Shown piece after piece: positions 19,585 to 31,197 of a DNA stretch of 31,197 nt (position 1 is the first letter of the stretch; each line of letters begins with the position of its first letter). Origin of the DNA: a virus; IMG/VR virus record IMGVR_UViG_3300049796_000015, positions 1-31,197 of that record; one strand, given 5' to 3'. The notes below the pieces were generated by a model. That model did not search any database. It saw nothing but the letters and a program-made list of their open reading frames with translations, and was not told where the DNA came from. The translations under genes were made by a program, and so were the position numbers.

Positions 19585-19600
19585 AGTCCAATTTTGCACT
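19585..19600. promoter_or_regulatory. Operator-like palindrome copy 1 (TGTCC family)
   Basis: AGTCCAATTTTGCACT; read on the minus strand it is AGTGCAAAATTGGACT, three mismatches from TGTCCAAAATTGGACA. It lies 66 bases before the nuclease gene start. It matches the other copies at 25408, 27350, 27685, 27979 and 29478. Confidence 0.5.
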
Positions 19601-19666
19601 TTCAGCATTGCTGGCAATAGGCAACGGTGCGTTTCAGGTTTTGCACAGAAAGTTTGAGTACCGATA

Positions 19667-20590
19667 ATGACTGCGTCCATCCGATGGGACGGCAGACCGA
19701 TCACGGCTGACGGCTGGTATGATCGCGTCCCGCTCTCTACCTATCACTCATCCAAAATCACCGTCGGACCGTCGATCTCGTCGAGCGGGTTGCGGCTGCT
19801 TTGGTCCAAATCGCCGAAGCATTTTTATGCAAAATGGCCCGGGAATCCGAACCGCGACGAGCTTGCAGAGGAGGAAAGCCAGGCGTTTCTGCTCGGACGC
19901 GCCGCGCATCATCTCTTCCTCGGCGAAGACGACTTTTCGCTGCAGTTCATCGAACGGCCCGCGAAGATTGCCGGGCTCGACTGGCACGGCAACAGGACGG
20001 AATGCAAGGCGTTCGTGAAACAGCAGGCGCAGCTCGGTCGCACCGTGCTGACGCCGAACGACATCAAGATCATTCGGGGCATGGCACGGAGTCTCGCCGA
20101 GGAGCCGCTGGCGGTCGATCTGCTGCAGGGCGCGGTTGAGCAAACCCTGATCGCCCAAGACCCGGACACCGGCATCTGGCTTCGGGCGCGGCCGGACGTG
20201 ATGCCGTCGTCGGACGGCATGTTCGCCGATCTGAAGACGACGCCGAGCGTGCTCGATATCGATCTGAAGCGGACGCTGCGGGACTACGGATATCATCAGC
20301 AAGGCGCCGTCATTTGGCAGGTATGCGAACTGCTCGGGCTGCCGTTCGACGGCTTTGTGCTCATTTTCATCGAAAAGAAATCGCCGTTCTGCACCCGCAT
20401 TGTCGAGTTGACGGATGACGATCTCGGCCGTGGCCGGTTGCAGAACATTGCCATGATGCGGCGGCTGAAGAAGTGCATCGACAGCGGCGCTTGGCCCGGG
20501 CCTGGCAAGCACGATGCAGAGTTCTTCTCGATGCCGGCATCGGAACAGGAATTCATTGATCTGCGGCTGCGCGAACTGGAGGCGGCGTGA
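19667..20590 (+). CDS. PD-(D/E)XK nuclease, RecE-like exonuclease
   Basis: 307 residues. The motifs of the family are visible in order: GRAAHHLFLGE (H81/H82), WLRARPDVM (D177), FADLKTT (D188, K190), and a DYGYHQQGAVI helix (Y209, Q212). The function should be 5'-3' resection of double-stranded ends in phage recombination. The start region (WDGRPITADGWYDRVPLSTYH) is typical of phage RecE-like proteins. A RecT-like gene follows two genes later, forming a two-component recombination system. The TGA overlaps the next ATG as TGATG. Confidence 0.85.
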   Translation: MTASIRWDGRPITADGWYDRVPLSTYHSSKITVGPSISSSGLRLLWSKSPKHFYAKWPGNPNRDELAEEESQAFLLGRAAHHLFLGEDDFSLQFIERPAKIAGLDWHGNRTECKAFVKQQAQLGRTVLTPNDIKIIRGMARSLAEEPLAVDLLQGAVEQTLIAQDPDTGIWLRARPDVMPSSDGMFADLKTTPSVLDIDLKRTLRDYGYHQQGAVIWQVCELLGLPFDGFVLIFIEKKSPFCTRIVELTDDDLGRGRLQNIAMMRRLKKCIDSGAWPGPGKHDAEFFSMPASEQEFIDLRLRELEAA

Positions 20591-20763
20591 TGGCTCAAGA
20601 TAAGGAAGGCCTGCAAGTAAGAATTCCCCCCGAAATCATTAATCAAATCGACAACTGGCGACGGAAGCAGCCGGTTATGCCGGCTCGGGCCGCCGCTGTT
20701 CGCTACTTTCTCGAAAAGGGTATGAGCCTCGTTCAACAAGAGCCAAAGAAGGGTCGGAACTGA
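20590..20763 (+). CDS. Ribbon-helix-helix (Arc-like) small protein
   Basis: 57 residues between two TGATG overlaps (20588-20592 and 20761-20765). The core LQVRIPPEIINQIDNW has the beta-strand and first helix of an Arc/CopG-type DNA-binding fold, and ARAAAVRYFLEKGM is the second helix. It may repress the recombination operon or act with the nuclease and RecT pair; the role is inferred. Confidence 0.75.
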   Translation: MAQDKEGLQVRIPPEIINQIDNWRRKQPVMPARAAAVRYFLEKGMSLVQQEPKKGRN

Positions 20764-21566
20764 TGGCGTTCGACGTCAATAAAATCGAAGAGCGGATCGA
20801 CAAGATCGTCACGGGATCAATGGAGATCAATGCCGAGGCCGGCGGCCTTGTTCTCAAGACTTCGACCGAAGCAATGGAATTTGCAAAGATGATGGCGACC
20901 GCCACGGCGGCATTGCCGAAGTATTTACGCGGTAACCTCGGAGACGTGCTTTCCATCTTGATGCAGGCGAACGCATGGCGCATGGACCCCTACGCGGTTG
21001 CGAGGCAATCATACTTCGTTAACGACACTATCGCGTTCCAGTCGCAGCTTATACACGCTCTCGTCAACACGCGCGCTCCGATCAAGGGAAGACTAAAAAT
21101 CTCTTTTGATGGCAATGGCGCGGAGCGCGTGTGCACCGTATGGGCGATCTGTCGAGAGGATGACGAGCGGGTAGAGTATGTCTCACCCGCATTTGGGGTG
21201 ATCAACCCCAAGAACAGCCCGCTCTGGAAAAACGACCCAGATCAGCAATTGCTTTATTTTTCGGTGAGAGCGTTCGCCCGCCGGAACTTCCCCGAGGTTT
21301 TGCTTGGTGTTTATGCCGACGATGAGTTGCGCGATACGGAACCGATGAAGGATGTCACGCCGGATCGCGGCACTCTGACGGATCGCTTGAAGAAACAAAA
21401 ACGAATTGCGTCATCGCGCGGGTTCGACGCCGCGCATGTCGAGCGCGAGACGCAAAAGGATGACCCGGCCGCGCTTACTCCCACGGCCGGGTCTGAGGCC
21501 GCGCCGTCCGAAACCCTCGCAGTGGCGGCGGACGGCGCGGTACCTCTCGAAGAGAAAGCGAGCTGA
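20763..21566 (+). CDS. RecT-like ssDNA-annealing protein
   Basis: 267 residues. Residues 35-150 show the RecT core: a LPKYLRGNLGDVLSILMQA helix, an NAWRMDPYAVARQSYFVND segment, and a FQSQLIHALVN helix followed by the IKGRLKISFDGNG strand. The C-terminal 70 residues are polar, low complexity and rich in Ala/Glu. It should anneal single strands produced by the nuclease at 19667, as in RecE/RecT and Exo/Beta pairs. The pairing and order support both calls. Confidence 0.85.
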   Translation: MAFDVNKIEERIDKIVTGSMEINAEAGGLVLKTSTEAMEFAKMMATATAALPKYLRGNLGDVLSILMQANAWRMDPYAVARQSYFVNDTIAFQSQLIHALVNTRAPIKGRLKISFDGNGAERVCTVWAICREDDERVEYVSPAFGVINPKNSPLWKNDPDQQLLYFSVRAFARRNFPEVLLGVYADDELRDTEPMKDVTPDRGTLTDRLKKQKRIASSRGFDAAHVERETQKDDPAALTPTAGSEAAPSETLAVAADGAVPLEEKAS

Positions 21567-21568
21567 TC

Positions 21569-21727
21569 ATGGAATTTTTGGTTGGATTGATTGTCGGCGC
21601 AATTGTCAGCGGTACCGTCAGCGCCATCGTCGTCGGCACGATGATGGCCGCGAAGCGCGCCGACCGCGACTATGAGAGCGAGTTGAATGAGCCGCAAAGT
21701 CGAAGAGTGGATCGGCAAGGACGATGA
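21569..21727 (+). CDS. Tiny single-TM protein in early operon
   Basis: 52 residues from ATG 21569, two bases after the RecT-like stop. Residues 3-26 (FLVGLIVGAIVSGTVSAIVVGTMM) form one membrane helix with Gly-x-x-x-Gly-like spacing; the tail is charged. It overlaps the HNH gene by 41 bases. Function unknown. Confidence 0.5.
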   Translation: MEFLVGLIVGAIVSGTVSAIVVGTMMAAKRADRDYESELNEPQSRRVDRQGR

Positions 21728-22058
21728 CGATCAGGTGCCGCCGAGGGTGCGGCTCCGGGTGTTCGACAGGTTCGGCGGCATCTGCTGCGAATGCACGACC
21801 AAGATCATCGCGCGCCGCTGGATATGCGATCACCGCCAGGCGCTGATCAACGGAGGACAGAACCGCGAAAACAATCTCGGCCCAATCCATGAGGACTGCG
21901 ACAAGACCAAGACCGTCGCCGACGTTGCGGAGAAGTCGAAAAATGCTCGGGTGCGATCGAAGCATCTCGGGATCAAGAAACGAAAGGGACGCGCGTTCCC
22001 GGGATCACGGGACAGTCCCTTCAAAGCGAAAATAGGCGGCGGCTGGGAACGGCGATGA
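21687..22058 (+). CDS. HNH endonuclease
   Basis: 123 residues. The HNH fold is clear: GICCEC Cys cluster (33-36), WICDHRQAL (H49), GGQNRENNLGPIHEDCDKTKT (N63, H68, C71). The tail is basic. HNH proteins of this shape are common in phage early regions, either as nicking enzymes in recombination/packaging or as homing elements. Here it is in the operon by overlap on both sides (next gene by ATGA), which argues against a recent insertion. Confidence 0.85.
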   Translation: MSRKVEEWIGKDDDDQVPPRVRLRVFDRFGGICCECTTKIIARRWICDHRQALINGGQNRENNLGPIHEDCDKTKTVADVAEKSKNARVRSKHLGIKKRKGRAFPGSRDSPFKAKIGGGWERR

Positions 22059-22243
22059 CGAAGATCAAGCGGCATTTCTCGAAGAAGAAGATCAACGACG
22101 CCGAACTGAAGCGATTATGGCCGTCACGACTAACAGATGCCGAACTCGCGAAACGGCTTGGTCATCACCCTTGGGTCTTGCGCCGCCGCGTCGTCAAGCT
22201 CGGTCTGCCATCATCGCGGCGCGAACTATGGAGTCAATCATGA
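22055..22243 (+). CDS. Small HTH-like basic protein
   Basis: 62 residues. The centre (LTDAELAKRLGHHPWVLRRRVVKLGL) has helix-turn-helix spacing of a homeodomain-like or sigma-like HTH, and the N-terminus is highly basic (KIKRHFSKKK). ATGA coupling to the HNH gene upstream and to 22240 downstream. Likely a DNA-binding regulator. Confidence 0.65.
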   Translation: MTKIKRHFSKKKINDAELKRLWPSRLTDAELAKRLGHHPWVLRRRVVKLGLPSSRRELWSQS

Positions 22244-22401
22244 GAATCCTCACCGAACTGATCGGCGGCGTAGTCCTGCTGCTGGTGTTTTTCTACGGCG
22301 TCAATGAGACCATCAAGTTCTTTGAACAGAGGGAGAGACAGAATGACAATGTACAACCTACGCAACGACAGCCCGACCCCGATGATGCGCCCGGGGCGTA
22401 A
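22240..22401 (+). CDS. Tiny single-TM protein before SPFH gene
   Basis: 53 residues. GGAG six bases before ATG 22240 is a perfect ribosome site and the ATGA overlap couples it to the HTH gene. Residues 3-20 (ILTELIGGVVLLLVFFYG) form one membrane helix; the C-terminus is polar and acidic. It overlaps the SPFH gene by 59 bases, so the two membrane proteins may be made together and could interact. Confidence 0.62.
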   Translation: MRILTELIGGVVLLLVFFYGVNETIKFFEQRERQNDNVQPTQRQPDPDDAPGA

Positions 22402-23290
22402 CCCGATTAGATTTTTTGCCACTATCGCGGGGGCGGTGGTCTTCGTGATTGCCGGGCTCACGGTGTTCTTTGGTAGTTGGTACACGGTTGACCAGACCGA
22501 GCGGGCTGTTCTGCTTCGCAACGGCGCTTTCGTCGAAGTGGTGCAGCCTGGTCTGCACTTCAAGCTGCCTTGGGCTGAGTCCGTCTACAAAATCGATATG
22601 CAGACCCATACCAAGACCTATGGCCAGGATGCTTCGAGCGGCAAGGACATCATGGAGGCGTACTCGGCTGATCAGCAGCCGGCGTTCCTGCGGGTTTCGG
22701 TCACGCTGCATATCGCACCGGATAAGGTCGCTGAGATGTATTCCAGGTTCGGCGGCGATTACGACGCGGCGCTTGGCCGGGTGATCTCGCCGCACGTCTA
22801 TGAGCGGGTGAAGGTGGTATTCGGTCAGTACACGGCGGCCAAGGCGATCAGCGCCCGAGGCCAGCTCAACGCTGATGCATCGAACTCGATCACTCAATCG
22901 ATCGCGTATGATCCGGTATTCATCATCGAGAGCGCACAGATCGAAAATATCTCGTTCTCGCCGGACTATATCCACTCGGTTGAGCAGCGGATGCAGGCTG
23001 AGGTCGAGGTGCAGCGCCAGCAACAGAATTATCAGCAGGAGAAGATCAAGGCCGACATCGCGGTGACGCAGGCGACGGGTCGAGCGAACAGTGTTCGCGC
23101 CGAAGCACAGGCCAGCGCGGATGCAACCGTCCTCCGTGGCAATGCTGAAGCTACCGCGATCAAGGCGAAGGCCGATGCTCTGGCGAGCAATTCCAACCTA
23201 ATCGCGCTGACCCAGGCTGAACGCTGGAACGGGGCATTGCCAACTACGATGGTGCCGGGATCGGCGGTGCCGTTCATTTCGGTGAAATAA
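22343..23290 (+). CDS. SPFH / Band-7 (prohibitin-like) membrane protein
   Basis: 315 residues. ATG 22343 is preceded by GAGGGAGAGA. A membrane helix lies at about 23-45 (FFATIAGAVVFVIAGLTVFFG). The SPFH domain follows (WYTVDQTERAVLLRNG, VVQPGLHFKLPW, SVYKIDMQTHTKTY, ALGRVISPHVYERVK), then a coiled coil from about 215 (QRMQAEVEVQRQQQNYQQ, AEAQASADATVLRGNAEATA). SPFH proteins form large cages in the membrane; HflK/HflC hold FtsH and thereby affect lambda CII stability. A phage copy could modify host membrane proteolysis or envelope stress. Role is inferred. Confidence 0.88.
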   Translation: MTMYNLRNDSPTPMMRPGRNPIRFFATIAGAVVFVIAGLTVFFGSWYTVDQTERAVLLRNGAFVEVVQPGLHFKLPWAESVYKIDMQTHTKTYGQDASSGKDIMEAYSADQQPAFLRVSVTLHIAPDKVAEMYSRFGGDYDAALGRVISPHVYERVKVVFGQYTAAKAISARGQLNADASNSITQSIAYDPVFIIESAQIENISFSPDYIHSVEQRMQAEVEVQRQQQNYQQEKIKADIAVTQATGRANSVRAEAQASADATVLRGNAEATAIKAKADALASNSNLIALTQAERWNGALPTTMVPGSAVPFISVK

Positions 23291-23628
23291 TGACCCCAAG
23301 CCAGATCATCCGCGAGACCTGCTTGAAGCATGGCGTTGGTTCTACGGAAGTCACCAGCCAATGCCGCAGCGACCGTGTGGTCCGTGCTCGCATCGAGATT
23401 ACGCATGAGCTTTCGGCTCGGGGCTACAGCCCGAGCCGGATTGGCATGATGCTGAACAAGGATCGCAGCACGGTCGTTTTCTACCTTGGGCGTACCAAGA
23501 AGGAGCCGAGCGTCAAGCTGCTTCCGCCGAAGGTCCGGGTCGTGAAACGCAAGCGCTATCTGATCCCTTATGCCGGCGCCTATTGGCCGGAATACGACTG
23601 GAAGGAGCGGCCATGCCGGAGCGGATGA
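23290..23628 (+). CDS. DnaA domain IV-like DNA-binding protein
   Basis: 112 residues. Residues 27-66 (SDRVVRARIEITHELSARGY and SPSRIGMMLNKDRSTVVFYL) look like the C-terminal DNA-binding domain of DnaA (R-x-x-x-R helix, IG-x-x-L, then DHTTV-like DRSTV). The AAA+ part is absent. It may be an origin-binding protein or a decoy for the host DnaA. TAATG overlap couples it to the SPFH gene. The similarity is by pattern only. Confidence 0.65.
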   Translation: MTPSQIIRETCLKHGVGSTEVTSQCRSDRVVRARIEITHELSARGYSPSRIGMMLNKDRSTVVFYLGRTKKEPSVKLLPPKVRVVKRKRYLIPYAGAYWPEYDWKERPCRSG

Positions 23629-23840
23629 GTTGCACCTACAGGATTTATCCATCCTGGTTCGGCGGCGAAAGTGGGAAGGCGATCACGGAGCTGGCGCACG
23701 GGTCGGCTGATCGGATGGGCCGGCGTGTGCTCGCCATTGATGTCATCCGGAATGATTCCGACTGGCGTGGCGAGTTCATCGATTTCCGGGTGACCTATAC
23801 GTCGACTGTCGCGAACGACTGGATGCAGAGGAAGCCATGA
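23613..23840 (+). CDS. Small hypothetical protein in early operon
   Basis: 75 residues from ATG 23613, where AAGGAG precedes at good distance; an upstream start at 23583 is unlikely. Beta-rich with Tyr/Phe/Arg (CTYRIYPSWFGGES, EFIDFRVTYTS). It overlaps the DnaA-like gene by 16 bases. Unrecognised. Confidence 0.6.
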   Translation: MPERMSCTYRIYPSWFGGESGKAITELAHGSADRMGRRVLAIDVIRNDSDWRGEFIDFRVTYTSTVANDWMQRKP

Positions 23841-23938
23841 ACTGTCACGACATCATCAATGGAATGATCGGCATGTCCATCCTTACCGTTGTGATAGCGC
23901 CGCTAGCGTGGGCTCTGATGTTTTGGAGGAAGCCATGA
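23837..23938 (+). CDS. Micro-protein with one TM helix
   Basis: 33 residues (23837-23938) with ATGA overlaps at both ends (23837-23840 and 23935-23938), and AGAGGAAG before the ATG. Residues 8-29 (NGMIGMSILTVVIAPLAWALMF) form one membrane helix; the tail is WRKP. Such double overlap gives it modest support despite its size. Function unknown. Confidence 0.5.
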   Translation: MNCHDIINGMIGMSILTVVIAPLAWALMFWRKP

Positions 23939-24444
23939 GGAAATTGACATTGTACCCAACGGAGTCTCTGACGATGGATCATTCAGCAAATATCTTCAGG
24001 CTGGACGATGTCGAAAACGACATCGCGACCGAGCTGCGGCGAGCCCCGCCGCTACGCCAACAGCTTCCTGTCGACTACGCGCCGCCGGCCGTGCGCTCGC
24101 CGCTGGTGCCAATGCCGGATTACGTCGAGCATGCCGATGGCGTCAACGACGTCGGCAGGCTCTCCGCCGAGGCCATGGTCCGCGACTACGAAGCGGCGGC
24201 AAAAGAGGTCGAGGCGATGTTCGTCGAGCTGACCGATACCGCCAAGCGATGCGAGACCATGGTCGCCGCCGTGCTCAAGACCGCTGCCGAGGTCAAGGAA
24301 ACAGCCACGTTCTTCCGCGAGGAAGGCAAGCGCGTCTTCGAAGAGATTCAGCGATGCTCGCTGATGAACGAACAGGTCCGAGAGACCTGCAACACCCTGA
24401 AGGCGAATATCGCCGGATCAAAGGACACCTATGACGCAGGATAA
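23935..24444 (+). CDS. Coiled-coil hypothetical protein
   Basis: 169 residues; GGAGGAAG precedes ATG 23935. The N-terminal 70 residues are Pro-rich and disordered; residues about 80-165 (SAEAMVRDYEAAAKEVEAMF and following) are one long amphipathic coiled coil. No known family. A structural or regulatory partner is possible. Confidence 0.7.
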   Translation: MRKLTLYPTESLTMDHSANIFRLDDVENDIATELRRAPPLRQQLPVDYAPPAVRSPLVPMPDYVEHADGVNDVGRLSAEAMVRDYEAAAKEVEAMFVELTDTAKRCETMVAAVLKTAAEVKETATFFREEGKRVFEEIQRCSLMNEQVRETCNTLKANIAGSKDTYDAG

Positions 24445-24697
24445 AAAAATCGCTGCCTTCTGCAGGGAACGGGATGAAATGCTGCTGGCGGCAGATGTTG
24501 ATCGCTCGATAGCCTTCGGTCTCAAGCATAATCCACATGCACTGCCACCATCATCGCGGGAGGTTGCCGAAATTTCCATGCATAAAGCGATCACCGCAGT
24601 CAGAACGCTGCCGCTGGAACACCGCCGTAAGTCATATCGATGGCTGACCGAACGTGGGTACACCTCGCACGACGACGGGGAGTTGAAGGATAGCTGA
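24431..24697 (+). CDS. Small hypothetical protein
   Basis: 88 residues, mostly helical and charged (FCRERDEMLLAADVDRSIAF, EISMHKAITAVRTLPLEHRR). It overlaps the coiled-coil gene by 14 bases and the next gene by one (TGATG). No family recognised. Confidence 0.62.
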   Translation: MTQDKKIAAFCRERDEMLLAADVDRSIAFGLKHNPHALPPSSREVAEISMHKAITAVRTLPLEHRRKSYRWLTERGYTSHDDGELKDS

Positions 24698-25404
24698 TGC
24701 CGGAGATCATGCCTCAAAAGCAGGCCGTAAGCCTTGGACTGAAGCACTACTTTACTGGCATCCAATGCAAGAGTGGCCATCTGGCCGCGAGGCGGACTTC
24801 CGATGGAAGCTGCTTAGAATGTAACAGGCTGCGTAATATAAAATACCGCTCTGTAAACGATGGTGCCCATCGGCGTGCGATCCCGATCACGATCGCTGCT
24901 GCGCTAGCTATTTGGGTGATGCTCGCTCGCCCGGCGCACTCGGCATCGTCTTGCATGAGCAAGAACGAAGCGCGTCACGCCTTCGAGACCTCACATATCT
25001 ATTGGCATGGTCTAAGCCATTGTTGGGACGCAACATCTCCGCGTTCGCATCACGTTCGATTTCGTGACGATGCGCGTTCGCGTCACGAATCGCATCACAA
25101 ATCATTTCGTGACGATGGTGCCCCGGTGCCGCTGCCAGCGGCCGATTTGCGCAAGCTGATGCAAGAGCCGGAGACCGACCTGACCACCGCGATGCCATGG
25201 GTCGATCGTTGGACCGACGTTGCCCCGGTCGTGCCAGCGCCCAGGCATATCGCGGTGTCCAAAATTGAACCGATGGTTGCCCCGCGCGACGTGATTGCCG
25301 CGATCCTGACCGTCCTGCTCTCGATCGCGCTGGTCGAGGTGGTGTTCGGCCGCAGGATCAATGAGCACCTGCGAAGGCGCCGCCGTCGCCATTTCGGCAC
25401 CTGA
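24697..25404 (+). CDS. Composite zinc-motif and membrane-anchored protein
   Basis: 235 residues. Residues 16-50 have a small zinc motif (YFTGIQCKSGHLAAR, CLECNR; C24, H28, C39, C42) of a type common in phage proteins. After it comes a signal-anchor-like helix (61-78, PITIAAALAIWVMLARPAHSA), then a Cys/His-rich segment, and at the end a second helix (DVIAAILTVLLSIALVEVVFG) with a basic tail. The joining of a cytoplasmic zinc motif to a secretory-type helix and Cys-rich domain is unusual; it may be a fusion. Last gene of the early operon. Confidence 0.62.
   Translation: MPEIMPQKQAVSLGLKHYFTGIQCKSGHLAARRTSDGSCLECNRLRNIKYRSVNDGAHRRAIPITIAAALAIWVMLARPAHSASSCMSKNEARHAFETSHIYWHGLSHCWDATSPRSHHVRFRDDARSRHESHHKSFRDDGAPVPLPAADLRKLMQEPETDLTTAMPWVDRWTDVAPVVPAPRHIAVSKIEPMVAPRDVIAAILTVLLSIALVEVVFGRRINEHLRRRRRRHFGT
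25059..25114 (+). repeat. Alternative-pairing hairpin repeats inside 24697-25404
   Basis: TTCGTGACG occurs at 25061-25069 and 25106-25114, each within a 14-base direct repeat (25059-25072 and 25104-25117). CGTCACGAA at 25081-25089 is complementary to both. The middle arm can therefore pair with the left (11-base loop) or the right copy (16-base loop), like an attenuator. Confidence 0.4.
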
Positions 25405-25407
25405 AAA

Positions 25408-25423
25408 TGTCCAAAATTGGACA
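25408..25423. promoter_or_regulatory. Operator-like palindrome copy 2, best copy
   Basis: TGTCCAAAATTGGACA, with perfect 7-bp arms and a 2-base centre. It starts 4 bases after the stop of 24697-25404 and sits before the integrase unit. TTGGAC in its right half could be a -35 with TATATG 18 bases downstream (25441-25446), so a bound protein would cover that promoter. Confidence 0.65.
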
Positions 25424-25457
25424 AATGTTAACTCTCTCGGTATATGAAGGCATTGCA

Positions 25458-25676
25458 GTGCGTACCCGAATCCGGCGACAAAAGGGGGTTATCCGGCCCC
25501 TTGATCCGGCCGACCCGAGAAACCCGAGCCATCCGTGCCATGATGAACAGTGGCTCGAATTGGCTAGGGCGATCGGCCGGTCCATCGGGCGGAAGCAGTA
25601 CGCAAAGGATCATGGGGGAGTTGTCGATGAATCCCAAAAAGAAAACAGCGGCGCTATACGCAAGATTCTCAAGTGA
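25458..25676 (+). CDS. Small protein overlapping integrase start
   Basis: 72 residues if started at GTG 25458, with GAAGG seven bases before; ATG 25407 and ATG 25425 would give longer forms overlapping or adjoining the palindrome. The sequence DPADPRNPSHP then EQWLELARAIGRSIGRKQYAKDHG looks like conserved small proteins I associate with rhizobial serine integrases. It overlaps the integrase start by 50 bases, and might be an excision or integration partner. Function unknown. Confidence 0.55.
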   Translation: MRTRIRRQKGVIRPLDPADPRNPSHPCHDEQWLELARAIGRSIGRKQYAKDHGGVVDESQKENSGAIRKILK

Positions 25677-27345
25677 TCTGCAAAAGGATTGCTCGATCGA
25701 GGATCAGTTCGCAGTGTGCGAAGCGCTGGCGAAACGCGAAGGCTTCGATGTTACGCAGAGGTTTTCTGACCGGGCAAAATCCGGCGCGACCATGTTCGGA
25801 CGGTCTGGCATCGAGGCGCTGATAGTCGCGGCGAAGGCGCGCAAGTTTGATATCGTCATCTGCGAAAACTTCGAACGTCTCTCGCGCGATTCCGAAGACA
25901 TTCAATATCTGTTTAAGCGGCTCAACCATGCCGAGATTGTCCTGCATTCTGTCAGCGACGGCAAGGCCGACAACATGAACGTGACGCTGCGCGGCCTGAT
26001 GGGCGCGATGCAGCTCAAGACCATCGCGGCTCAAGTGAAGCGCGGCCATAATGGTCGGGTCCGTGCCGGGAAATTCCCAGGCGCGGTAACCTACGGCTAT
26101 GATCGCATCCCCGGACAGCCAGGTGAGCGTGTAATCAATCTGGAGCAGGCAAAAATCATCCGTCGAATTTTTACCGAATATGCGGCAGGCAAGTCGCCGC
26201 GTGACATTGCCATAGGGCTCACGCGCGACAATATTCCGTCGCCCAAGGGAAGCGCCAACTGGAATCATCAGACGTTCGTTGGGGGCGGCGAAAAAAATGG
26301 CTTGATCGGGAATCGCCTCTACATCGGCGAGATCGTATGGAATAAGAATCATACCGTCACTGACCCGGATACTGGCCGCGACAGCATTCGCAAAACTGAT
26401 CTGAGCGAGCGCATCGTGACCCCGGTCCCGCACCTGCGCATCATCGATCAAGAATTATGGAATGCGGCGCAGGCCGTTCGCCTTGGTCGATCTGCGGTGA
26501 AGTTCGGGCCGGGCGGCATGAAGGTGAGAGATGTTGTTCCTCGCAACCAGCATTTGCTTTCCGGCTTGCTCCGCTGCGGTGTCTGCAATGGTCATATGAT
26601 CATCACCAATAAGGCGCGCGGAACGCAGTTCGTGGCCTGTGCCGCCGCGACGTCGAAGTCGGCATGCTCCCACCGGAAAAGCTATGACATCGCCAAACTG
26701 AAGAAGTTGGTTCTCGATAACTTCCGGGAAAACCTGATCGATCCGAAGCGTCATGCCGAGGCCATGCGCGCGGCTCATGCCGAATATGCGGCAGAGGAAA
26801 AGCGAAACAGCGCGGAGAAGGTATCTGCTGAAAAACAGATTGCTCGCCTGACGGTTCAAATTCGTCGCCTAGTTGATGCGATCGAAAACAGCGACAGCCC
26901 GGTCAAGGAGCTGCTTGCTTCCCTGGAAGCCAAAGAGGCTGAAAGGGTAGGGCTTGTCGAGCGCGTCCGATTGCTCGCCGCCAGCAACGTCGTTTCCCTG
27001 CATCCACATGTTGTCGATGCCTACCGAGAAAACATTGAGCAACTTCACGAGGCACTGAGCGGCGAGGATATCGATATCGACACCAAGCTGGCCTTCCACA
27101 ATGTAATGGACAGCATCGTTGTCCAGCCGACCGGATACCGCGAAGACTACGTGGTCGATGCTTACGGTAGACTGTCCGCCATCATGGGCATCAACCTGTT
27201 CCCGATAATGCGCTCGAACAACGAAATCGTTGCGGCAGAGGGTCTTTCTTGCCCCAATAGCGGCAACCGGGATTTCTCCGGTTTGCCGCTATCGCAGCAA
27301 CGAAACGGGCTGATATTATTGGGGCGCTGGCGTGCCGCAGCCTAG
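25627..27345 (+). CDS. Large serine recombinase (phage integrase)
   Basis: 572 residues from ATG 25627, with GGGGGAG upstream; the open frame extends to 25444 but that part is unlike the family. Catalytic domain 1-150: YARFSSDLQ with nucleophile S15, FDIVICENFERLSRD. Recombinase domain 185-300 (AGKFPGAVTYGYDR, IRRIFTEYAAGKSP, NRLYIGEIVWNK). Zinc ribbon about 315-365 (GLLRCGVCNG, CSHRKS). Long coiled coil 370-450, and a C-terminal tail. It should catalyse attP x attB integration; excision normally needs a separate small factor. att sites cannot be recognised from one copy. Confidence 0.92.
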   Translation: MNPKKKTAALYARFSSDLQKDCSIEDQFAVCEALAKREGFDVTQRFSDRAKSGATMFGRSGIEALIVAAKARKFDIVICENFERLSRDSEDIQYLFKRLNHAEIVLHSVSDGKADNMNVTLRGLMGAMQLKTIAAQVKRGHNGRVRAGKFPGAVTYGYDRIPGQPGERVINLEQAKIIRRIFTEYAAGKSPRDIAIGLTRDNIPSPKGSANWNHQTFVGGGEKNGLIGNRLYIGEIVWNKNHTVTDPDTGRDSIRKTDLSERIVTPVPHLRIIDQELWNAAQAVRLGRSAVKFGPGGMKVRDVVPRNQHLLSGLLRCGVCNGHMIITNKARGTQFVACAAATSKSACSHRKSYDIAKLKKLVLDNFRENLIDPKRHAEAMRAAHAEYAAEEKRNSAEKVSAEKQIARLTVQIRRLVDAIENSDSPVKELLASLEAKEAERVGLVERVRLLAASNVVSLHPHVVDAYRENIEQLHEALSGEDIDIDTKLAFHNVMDSIVVQPTGYREDYVVDAYGRLSAIMGINLFPIMRSNNEIVAAEGLSCPNSGNRDFSGLPLSQQRNGLILLGRWRAAA

Positions 27346-27349
27346 TACC

Positions 27350-27365
27350 TATCTAAATTTAGACT
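27350..27365. promoter_or_regulatory. Operator-like palindrome copy 3
   Basis: TATCTAAATTTAGACT, with the perfect 12-bp palindrome TCTAAATTTAGA at 27352-27363. It is 4 bases after the integrase stop and 98 bases before the XRE start. It shares the T-TC-AAA-TT-GAC pattern with the other copies. Confidence 0.45.
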
Positions 27366-27463
27366 TGCATCCTCACCGAGCGCCAACCTCTCGTGTGTAT
27401 ACAAGTTGTCCCGCATGCAGCAAAATTCAGCATTCACCAACCAAAAAGGCAAAGAGGAACAAA

Positions 27464-27685
27464 GTGGCATCCCGGCGACATATCGGAAAAATTCTCAAGG
27501 CAGCTCGCGTCAAGAAAAACTTGAGGGCCGAGGACGTTGGTAAGCGATGCAACGTTTCGCGAAGTCGCGTCTACCAATGGGAGAAGGGACGTCACGTCTT
27601 CGAGAAGAACATCCCGGCCCTTGCGAAAGTCCTCGGAATTCCCGTCGAAACACTTGAACGCGAGAACATAAAAAAAGCCGACTGA
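27464..27685 (+). CDS. XRE-family HTH regulator
   Basis: 73 residues from GTG 27464 with AGAGGAA upstream. The HTH_3 domain covers almost the whole protein (RHIGKILKAARVKKNLRAED, VGKRCNVSRSRVYQWEKG, LAKVLGIPVE). An ATG at 27332 would add 44 unlikely residues. Candidate for lysogeny control next to the integrase. The stop codon begins palindrome copy 4. Confidence 0.85.
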   Translation: MASRRHIGKILKAARVKKNLRAEDVGKRCNVSRSRVYQWEKGRHVFEKNIPALAKVLGIPVETLERENIKKAD

Positions 27686-27700
27686 GTCCTATTTTGGACA
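27685..27700. promoter_or_regulatory. Operator-like palindrome copy 4
   Basis: AGTCCTATTTTGGACA; its complement TGTCCAAAATAGGACT differs from the best copy at two positions. It overlaps the last base of the XRE stop codon and precedes the gene at 27737. Confidence 0.6.
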
Positions 27701-27736
27701 AGCATTATCCGGCGGCTGGGGATACGATCCCCGACC

Positions 27737-27985
27737 ATGGCCGATGACGATAAAAATCAAATGACCGAACACCTGACACGGAGAAATCCGGAGATGGAAA
27801 AGTACGTTGAGATTCAGCCTGTCGTCATGAAGGGGTACCCCGATGCGCACAATGTCTTTCTCCGGGTTACGAACCAAAGGTTTCAGGTGATGCAATATGG
27901 CTGCGAAACCAGGGAAGATGCTGAATGGATGCGCGACATGCTTTGCATCGCCCTGGCTAAAATCGTTGCCGATTCAAGAGTCTAA
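27737..27985 (+). CDS. Small hypothetical protein
   Basis: 82 residues; helix-strand-helix (EKYVEIQPVVMKG, FLRVTNQRFQVMQYG, DAEWMRDMLCIALAK). No family recognised. A perfect 6-bp hairpin GGGGAT-acg-ATCCCC (27718-27732) lies five bases before the ATG, which could hide the ribosome site. ATG 27761 is an alternative start. Confidence 0.65.
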   Translation: MADDDKNQMTEHLTRRNPEMEKYVEIQPVVMKGYPDAHNVFLRVTNQRFQVMQYGCETREDAEWMRDMLCIALAKIVADSRV

Positions 27986-27994
27986 TTTTGTACA
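27979..27994. promoter_or_regulatory. Operator-like palindrome copy 5
   Basis: AGTCTAATTTTGTACA; its complement TGTACAAAATTAGACT differs from the best copy at three positions. It straddles the stop codon of the preceding gene and lies upstream of a candidate promoter. A second inverted repeat (GAAAC..GTTTC, 27999-28016) lies next to it. Confidence 0.5.
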
Positions 27995-28024
27995 CCACGA
28001 AACCAAATTTAGTTTCACGCCCAA

Positions 28025-28053
28025 TTGACAGCAGTATTTTGCGGATGGATGTT
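28025..28053 (+). promoter_or_regulatory. Candidate promoter for 28094-28510
   Basis: A perfect -35 TTGACA (28025-28030) is followed by 17 bases and GATGTT (28048-28053), a partial -10. The start would be near 28060, ahead of GGAGGAG at 28081. The 27999-28016 repeat and palindrome copy 5 lie just upstream. Confidence 0.4.
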
Positions 28054-28093
28054 TCACAGCGTTGCTATCACCCAAAAGACGGAGGAGCCCGCT

Positions 28094-28510
28094 ATGAATA
28101 AGCAGTTGTCGGCCGATGAAGTTGCCAATCTTTCAGTTCCGATCCCGATCGTCGAGCCGATGACCCGGCAAGCAAAGCTGCAGCGCTTGGCTGACATTGC
28201 CAGGAAAAACTTTCCGACCAGAATATATCACCAGCTCGAACATTATCCCGACGAAGCGTATGACGAGATGGGCACCACAGGCTCGGTGTTCCATCTTGCG
28301 AAGAATGATCCTGTCCTGCGCGCCGCCGGTTATGTCGGGGAAACTCTCGGAGATGCAAAGCGGTTCTTCGAATTGACCCGCCATGACCTGCACGAGTTTT
28401 CATGCGATTGCGGCGGTGAGGTCACCAACCAAGACATGGCGGATCGAATCGAGAAGATCGCTGGTCGCGTTCCGCAGATCGTGATCGACTCGAAATCTTG
28501 GACTGGCTGA
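28094..28510 (+). CDS. Hypothetical protein
   Basis: 138 residues; GGAGGAG is six bases before ATG 28094. Features include helices (RQAKLQRLADIARKNF, DAKRFFELTRHDLHEF), a Cys-rich turn (CDCGGEV), and a helix (MADRIEKIAGRV). The centre (EHYPDEAYDEMGTTGSVFHLA) is acidic. No family recognised; could be a host or phage gene. Confidence 0.72.
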   Translation: MNKQLSADEVANLSVPIPIVEPMTRQAKLQRLADIARKNFPTRIYHQLEHYPDEAYDEMGTTGSVFHLAKNDPVLRAAGYVGETLGDAKRFFELTRHDLHEFSCDCGGEVTNQDMADRIEKIAGRVPQIVIDSKSWTG

Positions 28511-28521
28511 ATTCGCCGAAA

Positions 28522-28620
28522 CGAGAGACTGTGCAGGAGGCTATGCCCAGCCCTGTAGCTCTGACCTGCAAGTCTCTCGGGGAAGGGGTCGTCGACGAGC
28601 GGCAACGTCGGCGGCCCCTT
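28522..28620 (+). ncRNA. Candidate structured small RNA with terminator
   Basis: 28522-28537 pairs with 28565-28579 in a 15-bp stem with one bulge (G28531). Its apex holds a small hairpin GGCT-atgccc-AGCC (28539-28552). A second 15-bp hairpin (28583-28620) with a T-containing tail follows after three bases. It lies between the stop of 28094-28510 and the end of the CRP/FNR gene. It may be a trans-acting sRNA from the 3' UTR; no family recognised. Confidence 0.45.
28583..28620. terminator. Strong hairpin terminator between convergent genes
   Basis: AAGGGGTCGTCGACG (28583-28597) pairs with CGTCGGCGGCCCCTT (28606-28620), 15 bp including two G-T wobbles, with an 8-base loop. On the plus strand it is followed by tctagttttctt, a weak T-tract. 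It would end 28094-28510 and may also serve the minus-strand gene that ends at 28622. Confidence 0.7.
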
Positions 28621-28621
28621 T

Positions 28622-29299
28622 CTAGTTTTCTTCCTGCCTCTCGTGCAGCACGGCATTGAGCAGCGCGGTATTCACCTCGATCTCGCCATTGTACTTAATC
28701 ATGCCGAGCTTCCGAAACTTGTTCATGAAGTGATTGACGTATTGTCGTGTGGTGCCGATCATTTCGGCCAGCATCTCTTGGGAGATATGGCTCGGTATCA
28801 CCCGCTTGTTGTCCGCGCCGGAATTCGCCAGCAGCAGCAACAGCCGCGCTAGCCGCTTCTCGCGCGAATTGAAAAGCTGGTCCATTAGGTCGGCTTCGAT
28901 GCGGCGATTGCGATGGGACATGTAGTCAATAAACAATTGCAAGAAAGTCGGTTCGCGCATCAGGAATTCCATCATCGTGTCTCTCGTGATTGTCGTGATC
29001 ACGCTGGGCATCAGGGCCACCGTCGTCGTCAGCCTGGTGTGTGTGCCGCCTTCCAAGGTGGTCTCGCCGAAAAATTGGCCCGGGTCCAAAATGCCGACCA
29101 CGACTTCCTTGCCGGCCATGGCCTCTTTGCCCTGATCGGAAGTAACAGTGACCTTGACTCGGCCGGTTTGCAGATAGTGCACCATGATCGCAGGCTCGCC
29201 CTGCTTGTAGATGATCTCGCCGGTCTTGAATTTTGTGATGGTTTTGCCTTCCCCGGGCCTCGACAGAAATGCCCTCGGATCGAACCGCGTATCGCGCAC
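28622..29299 (-). CDS. CRP/FNR-family transcription regulator
   Basis: 225 residues if started at GTG 29299. Residues 21-125 form the cyclic-nucleotide-binding-type sensor (GEIIYKQGEPAIMVHYLQTG, GQFFGETTLEGG, T-R-L at 88-90 where CRP has R-S/T). Residues 148-205 are the winged helix (REKRLARLLLLLA, HISQEMLAEMIGTTRQYVNHFMNKFRKLG). The recognition helix has R185, Q186 and H190 where CRP has R180, E181 and R185. An unusual GKEA/GKEV doubling lies at 57-65. The frame stays open to GTG 29494, in palindrome copy 6. The best ATG with a GGGAGGAAGG site lies in another frame (29353), so the start is uncertain. Confidence 0.85.
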   Translation of the reverse strand: MRDTRFDPRAFLSRPGEGKTITKFKTGEIIYKQGEPAIMVHYLQTGRVKVTVTSDQGKEAMAGKEVVVGILDPGQFFGETTLEGGTHTRLTTTVALMPSVITTITRDTMMEFLMREPTFLQLFIDYMSHRNRRIEADLMDQLFNSREKRLARLLLLLANSGADNKRVIPSHISQEMLAEMIGTTRQYVNHFMNKFRKLGMIKYNGEIEVNTALLNAVLHERQEEN

Positions 29300-29413
29300 T
29301 GGTCGTACTCGCTTTTCATGGATGTTGGAAAATCCATTGCTTTCGCTCCTGCCATGGCGTTCACCCTTCCTCCCGTTTGGGGTGAAAAAATCTTGCGCGT
29401 ATCGGCTCAGGTT

Positions 29414-29419
29414 ATTATA
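29414..29419 (-). promoter_or_regulatory. Candidate -10 box for CRP/FNR gene
   Basis: The minus strand reads TATAAT here, a perfect -10, with a weak TTCTGC -35 about 18 bases upstream. Transcription would begin near 29407, so the usable start codon must lie downstream, consistent with GTG 29299. Confidence 0.45.
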
Positions 29420-29477
29420 GCAGAGCTTGCAAATGTCGCAGAAACGCTCTAGCAGTTTGGACACATTAAAGTCCAGA

Positions 29478-29493
29478 TGTCCAAAATTAGACA
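29478..29493. promoter_or_regulatory. Operator-like palindrome copy 6
   Basis: TGTCCAAAATTAGACA, one mismatch from copy 2. It lies between the CRP/FNR gene (minus) and 29534 (plus). A TTTGGACA half-site (29456-29463) and GTCCA at 29471-29475 (TGGAC..GTCCA repeat) adjoin it, so the divergent control region may have two sites. Confidence 0.62.
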
Positions 29494-29533
29494 CGAGATG
29501 TAACCTTACCCGCAGAGTTTTACCGAGGGGGCG

Positions 29534-29803
29534 ATGATCAAAGAGGGCGACGACATACTGATCACCTGTGATGGCCAGACCATCACAGGCAAGTTAACCA
29601 TGCTTTCCAAGGATAAGGTCTCGGCGCTTCTGTCATTCGGCCGGGAGGTTTTCGCGGGCCATATCGCTGCCATACCAGTGCAACGGTACGACCTGGCGCG
29701 CGGCATTTATCGCTCGATCATCGACGGCACCGCCGTCACCTTCCAGAAAAAACCCGACGATGTCCCGCAACCACCCGCAAGGCCGCGCAAGCGCTCGGTC
29801 TGA
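29534..29803 (+). CDS. Small beta-rich hypothetical protein
   Basis: 89 residues with GAGGGGGC before the ATG. The N-terminal part (DDILITCDGQTITGKLTMLSKDKVSALLSFG) is beta-strand-rich, like a small barrel; the C-terminus is Pro/Arg-rich. No recognised family. It is divergent from the CRP/FNR gene and first of a rightward unit. Confidence 0.68.
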   Translation: MIKEGDDILITCDGQTITGKLTMLSKDKVSALLSFGREVFAGHIAAIPVQRYDLARGIYRSIIDGTAVTFQKKPDDVPQPPARPRKRSV

Positions 29804-29825
29804 TCGCAACGCCATTGGAGGAGTT

Positions 29826-30554
29826 ATGGCAAAGCCACCTGAAACGCGAGATCGATTTAAGATTTTTGTAGAAACCAGCAAAGAGCAGATGGGCGATGTA
29901 ATCGTCGTACTGACTAAAATGGGTTTCGAAAATATCGGTCACGAGCTGATCACCGACGTCAAGGCCTGGGGCCGCAAGACGCATGACACCACGGCGGCAG
30001 ATGCCATCGCCGAATATATCAAGGAGAACCCGACATTCCGTGCCCGCGACCTTATTGCTCATCTCAAACTGGATGGGCGCAACAATAACGCGGTCTATAG
30101 CGGCATCAGGACCATGCTCGACAAAAAGTTGCTGATTAAACTTGGCGAAGGCAACTACCAGCGCGCCGATGTCAAGGCATTGGCGGCACCGAAAGCGGCG
30201 CCAGACAAGCGGCCAGCGAAGAAGTCGCGAGCAGGGATCAAGCCTTACGAGATCACCAACTATGACTTGATCTGGCGGCATTTCAAGAACCGGCAGTCGT
30301 TCAAGGCCAAAGACGTTGCCGTTCTTTTCCGTGCCAACAACCGGCCGGATAAATCGGCGACTTCTACGCTTTCGACAATGACCACAAAAAAAATATTCAG
30401 GCGCGTCGGCGAGGGCCGATACGAAGTGGTCAAAGAGAAGGCTACCGCCGCGAAGAAAAAGGTCGCGACCAAACGCAGCAAACATCAACCGTCGATCGAG
30501 TCACCTGTGGTGAATGCATCGGCATCAACATCGGGGACCATCGTCTATGGCTAA
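29826..30554 (+). CDS. Tandem winged-helix protein
   Basis: 242 residues from ATG 29826 (GGAGGAG just before). Two similar winged-helix repeats are visible: about 57-115 (DAIAEYIKENPTFRARDLIA, ending KLGEGNYQRADVK) and 144-205 (NYDLIWRHFKNRQSFKAKDV, ending RVGEGRYEVVKEK). A basic linker separates them; the end is basic and low complexity. The doubled DNA-binding unit suggests a sequence-specific regulator or architectural protein. Overlaps the next gene by 8 bases. Confidence 0.75.
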   Translation: MAKPPETRDRFKIFVETSKEQMGDVIVVLTKMGFENIGHELITDVKAWGRKTHDTTAADAIAEYIKENPTFRARDLIAHLKLDGRNNNAVYSGIRTMLDKKLLIKLGEGNYQRADVKALAAPKAAPDKRPAKKSRAGIKPYEITNYDLIWRHFKNRQSFKAKDVAVLFRANNRPDKSATSTLSTMTTKKIFRRVGEGRYEVVKEKATAAKKKVATKRSKHQPSIESPVVNASASTSGTIVYG

Positions 30555-30918
30555 GAAATCAAAAACAAACGGACACGGCGGCGTGGGGCACAATCGCGGC
30601 GTGCTCCGGCTCTATCGGTCCTACAATCATGTCACCAAAAATCCGTCGATCGACAAGTTGCGGACCGCGATGCAGGACGAAGGGCTCGACATCAAGAAAC
30701 TCCATGTTCTTTCGAACGTCGGCCATACCACCATCGACAACTGGTTCAATGGCAAAACCAAGAACCCGAATTCAGTGACGCTCAACGCTGCAGCGGCGGC
30801 GATGGGTTTCGACTGGCAGCTCAAGCGCGAAAAGAAATTGGACTACGCGAAGGAAATTCCAGCGGCGGTTCGCTGGCACGAACGGATTGAGACGGACCGC
30901 AATCAACAGAAGAAGTGA
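30547..30918 (+). CDS. HTH protein (XRE-like)
   Basis: 123 residues from ATG 30547. Residues 30-95 (SIDKLRTAMQDEGLDIKKL, GHTTIDNWFNGKTKNPNSVT, AAAAAMGFDWQL) form a helix-turn-helix of the XRE type with Trp in the recognition helix. It begins MAKKSKT like the next gene, which suggests duplicated translation starts. Part of the regulatory cassette; the target is unknown. Confidence 0.7.
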   Translation: MAKKSKTNGHGGVGHNRGVLRLYRSYNHVTKNPSIDKLRTAMQDEGLDIKKLHVLSNVGHTTIDNWFNGKTKNPNSVTLNAAAAAMGFDWQLKREKKLDYAKEIPAAVRWHERIETDRNQQKK

Positions 30919-30932
30919 GAGGAACAGGGCTG

Positions 30933-31197
30933 ATGGCAAAGAAATCGAAGACAGCGCGCAATCCGCGCACTGCCGGCAAAGCAGAAGAAACGATGGGCCA
31001 CCGCATTCGGCTGCGGCGGGTCGAGCAAAAAATGTCGCAGATGGAACTTGGCCTCAAGCTCGGCGTCAGCTTCCAGCAGGTCCAGAAATACGAAAAGGGC
31101 ACCAACCGCGTCGGTGCATCGCGGTTACAGCAAATTGCCACCGCGCTGGATGTCCCGGTGACGTTCTTTTACGATGGCACTAATGGCAAGCAACTGG
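30933..31197 (+). CDS. XRE-family repressor-like protein, cut by window end
   Basis: At least 88 residues, open to the right edge. The HTH_3 domain is clear (ETMGHRIRLRRVEQKMSQMEL, KLGVSFQQVQKYEKGTNRV, LQQIATALDVPVTFFYDG). This form is common in alphaproteobacterial chromosomes and phages. It may be the phage repressor, an alternative to the CRP/FNR protein as the palindrome-binding factor. The start MAKKSKT matches the upstream gene. Confidence 0.85.
   Translation, partial: MAKKSKTARNPRTAGKAEETMGHRIRLRRVEQKMSQMELGLKLGVSFQQVQKYEKGTNRVGASRLQQIATALDVPVTFFYDGTNGKQL

Follow-up and report, generated by a model that had tools for sequence, protein, structure and literature searches.

Predicted operators of a phage-encoded Crp/Fnr-family regulator: a recurring set of 16-bp palindromes

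The soil bacteriophage sequence analyzed here, an entire IMG/VR record of 31,197 bases (IMGVR_UViG_3300049796_000015; called the window below, with all coordinates counted over the whole stretch), carries six copies of a 16-bp palindrome close to recombination, integration, and regulatory genes. The question raised by this locus is which protein, if any, reads these palindromes. Based on sequence comparisons, we consider it likely that they are operators of a Crp/Fnr-family protein encoded by the phage itself (28622–29299) and that they define its regulon.

The six sites of the original prediction were all found at the positions given there. The palindrome that they share is real, but a refined consensus, WGTCYAAWWTTRGACW, fits better than the pattern first proposed. 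This consensus is 16 bp long, two-fold symmetric, and has a 5+6+5 layout (TGTCY-N6-RGACA); two of the six sites are identical to it, and each of the remaining four deviates by one mismatch. An exact calculation with an order-1 Markov model gave 0.0045 expected sites in the window with up to one mismatch to WGTCYAAWWTTRGACW and 0.09 with up to two. The pattern first proposed, searched on both strands with up to three mismatches, had 18 matches versus 3.6 expected, and none of the shuffled sequences got to 18. As WGTCYAAWWTTRGACW derives from the six sites themselves, the weight-matrix scan that had been suggested was done with an independent matrix, whose 11 training sites come from the phages G003, G010, and G012, with none from the window. 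Over the approximately 31,000 window positions, the six sites took ranks 1 to 6, with scores of 25.0 to 16.9. A copy at 25256 that the original prediction had overlooked followed on rank 7 (13.7), and the next window position scored 10.6. The sites are as follows:

19585..19600: site AGTCCAATTTTGCACT, 67 bp 5' of the exonuclease VIII/RecT unit; one mismatch, matrix rank 6
25256..25271: possible extra site TGTCCAAAATTGAACC, within an open reading frame (ORF) of 235 aa; two mismatches, matrix rank 7
25408..25423: site TGTCCAAAATTGGACA, 5' of the small gene at 25458 and the integrase; exact match
27350..27365: site TATCTAAATTTAGACT, directly 3' of the integrase stop and about 100 bp 5' of the XRE gene; one mismatch, same in G001
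27685..27700: site AGTCCTATTTTGGACA, on the XRE stop codon and 5' of the 82-aa gene; one mismatch, with counterparts 3' of XRE in G010 and G012
27979..27994: site AGTCTAATTTTGTACA, on the stop of the 82-aa gene and 100 bp 5' of the 138-aa gene; one mismatch
29478..29493: site TGTCCAAAATTAGACA, within the gap that separates crp on the minus strand from the 89-aa operon on the plus strand; exact match, matrix rank 1

The extra site at 25256 is doubtful because the listing of G001 shows no counterpart. The six sites are located in gaps or on stop codons, except that 29478 is covered by the longest crp ORF that can be read (from a GTG at 29494), within a 5' extension of doubtful reality. L123 has a stop inside the corresponding N-terminal extension, and L027 and L176 lack it, so that we take the GTG at 29299 as the likely crp start. 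This makes the 29478 site intergenic and brings all six sites into gaps or onto stop codons, as had been proposed. The sites are confined to 19.5–29.5 kb, and the left, mostly structural half (1–19 kb), with its head/packaging and replication-type genes, contains none. A regulon with a single reader fits the data well, but the term "phage-wide" in the original prediction was too strong.

For the comparison with other viruses, only viral contigs with several motif copies were taken further; single exact matches in about 100 other viral contigs were regarded as mostly due to chance. Besides the window, four distinct viral records combine a Crp protein, a small XRE protein, and TGTCY sites, namely G001, G003, G010 (with L124 as a near-identical second record), and G012 (L176). 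G001 (Crp 98% and XRE 79% identical) has counterparts of the six window sites plus additional ones, including an identical copy of the 19585 site 5' of the same gene. In G003 (Crp 42%, two XRE proteins), sites are present in the crp/89-aa gap, 5' of an XRE gene, and 5' of the integrase operon, which encodes a tyrosine-type integrase. G010 (Crp 44%, XRE 48%) has sites in the crp/264-aa gap and 3' of XRE. G012 (exonuclease 66%, RecT 41%, integrase 40%, XRE 58%, 138-aa protein 40%, and Crp 42% identical) has them 5' of the integrase unit, 3' of XRE, 5' of the 138-aa gene, and in the crp gap. Counterparts of the 25408 site 5' of the integrase unit are thus found in G001 (8092), G003 (10896), and G012, and the gap corresponding to that of the 29478 site holds sites in all four records; a site of this type adjoins crp in all TGTCY phages. 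By calculation, 0.002–0.003 matches with up to one mismatch are expected in the 14–21 kb stretches of these phages. Instead of being equally frequent within genes or lost in relatives, the sites lie nearly all outside coding sequence and recur at corresponding positions (integrase unit, XRE side, 138-aa gene, and crp gap) in phages whose proteins are only about 40–65% identical.

The same positions bear on the view that the palindromes are terminators, recombination sites, or copied repeats and not operators. Some of them do overlap stop codons, and the serine recombinase gene adjoins two. This explanation is nevertheless highly improbable, as the palindromes are kept at corresponding positions that include the divergent promoter gap, also in G003 with its tyrosine-type integrase, and as the shared part is the 16-bp core alone, without mobile flanks. 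Terminators in particular are ruled against by the lack of T-runs after the sites.

Three regulators come into question as readers, namely the two proteins listed here and the second XRE protein of the window (see below):

28622..29299, minus strand: crp, Crp/Fnr-family regulator of 225 aa, with its start placed at GTG 29299; the proposed reader
27464..27685, plus strand: XRE/HTH_3 protein of 73 aa with an HTH_3 match; the rival reader

The crp product matched the Pfam families PF00027 (cNMP_binding; 60.4 bits, cut-off 27.5) and PF13545 (HTH_Crp_2; 49.3 bits, cut-off 27), and its predicted structure has the CRP fold, with TM scores of about 0.7–0.78 to GlxR, MtbCRP, and CRP. By domains and predicted fold, it is a member of the CRP/FNR superfamily. 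Orthology to CRP, FNR, FixK, or NtcA was rejected, as the protein stayed far below the NCBIfam equivalog cut-offs. For CRP, the score was 44.6 bits versus a cut-off of 266, the position of E181 is occupied by Q, and the sites contain no TGTGA-N6-TCACA; an FNR-like Fe-S oxygen sensor does not agree with a 225-aa protein without cysteine, nor is there an FNR box (TTGAT-N4-ATCAA) at the sites. Searches with the canonical CRP, FNR, and alphaproteobacterial LexA patterns gave weak or single matches only, none of them at the sites. In alignments judged by eye, the equivalents of the cAMP-contacting E72 and R82 are present, and those of S83 and the T127/S128 pair are not. PHROGs, INPHARED, and BFVD contain hardly any Crp/Fnr proteins encoded by phages: there was no Crp-type match in PHROGs, three matches at 23–25% identity in INPHARED, and one good match in BFVD. 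A literature search, mostly outside subscription journals, found no phage-encoded Crp/Fnr regulon.

The 5+6+5 geometry of the window sites is that of CRP sites. Further evidence that points to Crp as the reader comes from a related Crp subfamily with an RSRVS recognition helix, which is encoded on Bradyrhizobium and Methylocapsa plasmids. These proteins are 47–57% identical to the window Crp, and their crp genes are adjoined by a sister palindrome, TGNNCAAWWTTGNNCA. The subfamily differs from the window system in the arms of the motif (TGAGC, TGTTC, or TGGTC), in its stress-type neighbors in place of phage genes, and in the lack of the small XRE gene. We scanned for TGNNCAAWWTTGNNCA in plasmids of Bradyrhizobium japonicum (W01, which is p1S06B, and W04), Bradyrhizobium CB82 (W02), Methylocapsa (W03), and Methylocystis (W05), as well as in the phages G007, G008, and G011. 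In the 291 kb of W03, there are just two matches, and both flank crp. All five matches in the 573 kb of W01 are at 89–106 kb, around two crp genes (92.5 and 102.6 kb), and W04 has two matches, one of them at a distance of 1.4 kb from crp. Among the four matches in G007, one is directly 5' of crp, and G008 has a single match, about 120 bp 3' of crp. A reversed TGNNCAAWWTTGNNCA control pattern gave no match. The homologue of the 138-aa gene in G007 (44% identity) is preceded by the sister motif TGAGCAATATTGACCA, that in G012 by TGTCTAAAAGTAGACA, and that in the window by AGTCTAATTTTGTACA, suggesting that the site type at this gene changes together with the Crp helix.

The same pairing is seen throughout the set: the helices RQYVNH, RTQVNR, RPRVNQ, and RPRVNY go with TGTCY arms, and RSRVS goes with TGAGC, TGTTC, or TGGTC. 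G009, with the helix RPRVNT and no small XRE, has one weak TGTCC-type site 5' of crp. In E. coli CRP, R180 and E181 take part in reading the operator. The helices of the two types have all kept the arginine at the position of R180, just as their motifs have kept the TG..CA skeleton, and all of them lack the glutamate of E181, consistent with the fact that none of the motifs is TGTGA.

Several observations weigh against Crp as the reader. W02, W05, and G011 carry the Crp subfamily but no TGNNCAAWWTTGNNCA match. The pairing of helix and motif may go back to one ancestral change and therefore supports, but does not prove, this assignment. G002 and G005 carry TGTCY sites with no crp in the record, although these records may be incomplete; the small XRE is missing from both as well. 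Among the window promoters, only that of the 82-aa gene shows a clear -10-like box at class II distance (see below). Finally, all phages whose TGTCY set is well supported (the window, G001, G003 with two copies, G010, and G012) also have a small XRE gene, so that co-occurrence cannot separate Crp from the small XRE protein within this group.

The small XRE/Cro-type protein is therefore the main rival, as a phage repressor that would have operators around its own gene as well as at crp, the integrase, and the genes for recombination. Sites are found on both sides of its gene, its recognition helix CNVSRSRVYQWE is nearly invariant across relatives whereas that of Crp is variable, and symmetric sites with A/T-rich centers are frequent targets of XRE repressors. 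We give this reading a small but real chance, as the small XRE is absent from G007, G008, W01, W03, and W04 (a weak match in G007 is the second XRE protein), where the sister motif adjoins crp and, in G007, precedes a homologous target. The common 16-bp skeleton of the sister motif is not explained by the small XRE either. The second XRE protein of the window, which begins at 30932, was rejected as a candidate: its helix region FQQVQKYEKG is identical in the window and G007 despite the differing motifs and therefore cannot explain the motif switch.

Alternatively, the sites could be read by a regulator of the host, such as a chromosomal member of the same Crp subfamily, with the phage merely carrying the operators. 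The crp-less records mentioned above, in which TGTCY sites precede an outer-membrane-protein gene, would agree with this, as would clustered perfect copies without a Crp match in G004 and G006. We regard a host reader as quite unlikely, since the bacterial relatives examined here combine RSRVS helices with another arm sequence, and since the sites track the phage crp gene. Crp of the phage itself remains the preferred reader, and its proposed regulon would comprise the exonuclease VIII/RecT genes, the integrase unit, the XRE gene, the 82-aa and 138-aa genes, and the divergent crp/89-aa operon:

19667..20590, plus strand: exonuclease VIII-like nuclease (phrog_412, E 1.5e-62); presumed target
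20763..21566, plus strand: RecT-like annealing protein (phrog_561, PF03837); presumed target
25458..25676, plus strand: small gene (VRTRIRRQKGVIRPLDPADPR...), overlapping the integrase at its annotated 5' end; the 25408 site is followed by this gene first
25444..27345, plus strand: large serine recombinase (integrase), longest ORF (phrog_95, E 8.5e-83); presumed target
27737..27985, plus strand: 82-aa gene, no known family by Pfam-type and PHROG profile matches, 88% identical in G001; presumed target
28094..28510, plus strand: 138-aa gene, no known family, homologues in G007, G010, and G012; presumed target
29534..31197, plus strand: divergent operon (89-aa protein, 264-aa protein, HTH protein, and second XRE), running off the contig; presumed target
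27723..27728, plus strand: putative -10-like box TACGAT, 22 bp after the 27685 site and 5' of the 82-aa gene; score 5.0 versus a background 95th percentile of 2.9

As the small gene at 25458 overlaps the annotated 5' end of the integrase and a similar start, MRPRIKKATGVLRPLGAGDPR, is present at the same place in L176, the true integrase start may be near 25630. The gene order of the divergent operon is kept in L027, L123, and L176. The 264-aa gene (29826–30551) follows the 89-aa gene in all TGTCY phages whose region is covered; its product has no NCBIfam match and, to judge by its sequence, may consist of two repeated halves that resemble winged helices.

On TGTCY-N6-RGACA, a Crp dimer would read one arm with each of its recognition helices, and the constant arginine would read the constant G of TG..CA; the lack of an E181 equivalent would fit the lack of TGTGA specificity. 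As the divergent crp/89-aa gap belongs to the proposed regulon, crp is probably autoregulated. With respect to the mode of action, TATAAT-like hexamers were most frequent 22 bp 3' of the site (6 of 30 sites versus about 1 at other offsets), which would place the site center near -42.5 from the presumed start, as in class II CRP/FNR activators. The box was clear at offsets of 22–24 bp for crp in G007, G003, and G010, for two other units of G007, for the GlsB/YeaQ gene of W01, and for the 82-aa gene of the window, which suggests class II activation at some promoters. At the other window genes, which have no such box, repression is equally possible, or action from other positions; class I distances there are too loose for any claim. 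The mode of action is less certain than the identity of the reader.

Some further motif copies are noted here as side aspects. G006 (L095 3648–5662, L038; IMGVR_UViG_3300028103_000018) and G004 (L076 6813–9665; IMGVR_UViG_3300033463_004735) each contain six perfect TGTCCAAAWTTGGACA-type copies, most of them in gaps and all clustered within a stretch of a few kb; neither Crp nor the small XRE has a match in these records. An apparently accessory outer-membrane beta-barrel gene (MKKHIFAACIAALGVAPAAAADM...) is found 3' of one or two motif copies in G001 (L164 3282–3322), G005 (L080 3162–3202), and G002 (L020 4168–4183), the copies being 25 bp apart in G001 and G005. The AGTCTCGTTTTGGACA copies in G002 and G005 are doubtful because that of G005 falls within a sugar-epimerase-like coding sequence. 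L174 (13462–13477; IMGVR_UViG_3300014167_000003) has the palindrome TGTTCCCACGGGAACA between a 29% identical crp and a 264-aa-type gene; as a single copy, it was kept out of the evidence. On p1S06B (L168 1352–18162), the five sister copies are near CsbD, GlsB/YeaQ, and AI-2E-type genes, and the 89–106 kb region is possibly a plasmid stress regulon of the same Crp subfamily. Its crp gene at 102.6 kb looks frameshifted.

Decision-making in phages is commonly described in terms of CI/Cro-type control or SOS coupling. The data would permit a wider view, to which we give about even chances, of an alphaproteobacterial phage family run by a phage-encoded Crp/Fnr master regulator that is kin to a plasmid regulator and has switched its operator specificity from TGAGC/TGTTC to TGTCC/T. 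Recombination, integration, regulatory, and accessory genes would then answer a host signal via a Crp-type sensor that either replaces a CI-type repressor or works next to it. If this is true, a private Crp/Fnr operator set would give the phage a ligand-sensing, metabolism-type input to its integration and recombination genes. The comparison also yields a predicted operator (TGAGCAATATTGMTCA and variants) for the Bradyrhizobium-type Crp subfamily, for which we found no published motif, and the helix/operator types form a natural pair for the study of Crp specificity.

With known CRP/FNR regulators (E. coli CRP, GlxR, MtbCRP, Sinorhizobium Clr, and NtcA), the window system shares the cNMP-binding domain combined with HTH_Crp_2, symmetric 16-bp sites with TG..CA edges, and, at some sites, a class II-like distance from the -10 box. 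It differs from them in being encoded by a phage, in its TGTCY instead of TGTGA arms, in having no E181 equivalent, and in cAMP contacts that, as judged by eye, are only partly kept. It resembles the CI/Cro systems of lambda, 434, and P22, in which a regulator encoded by the phage likewise has multiple palindromic operators, placed over genes for recombination and integration and next to the regulator gene. In contrast to these systems, the proposed reader in the window is a Crp/Fnr protein that may partly activate, and its sites are single and dispersed rather than clustered in tripartite operators.

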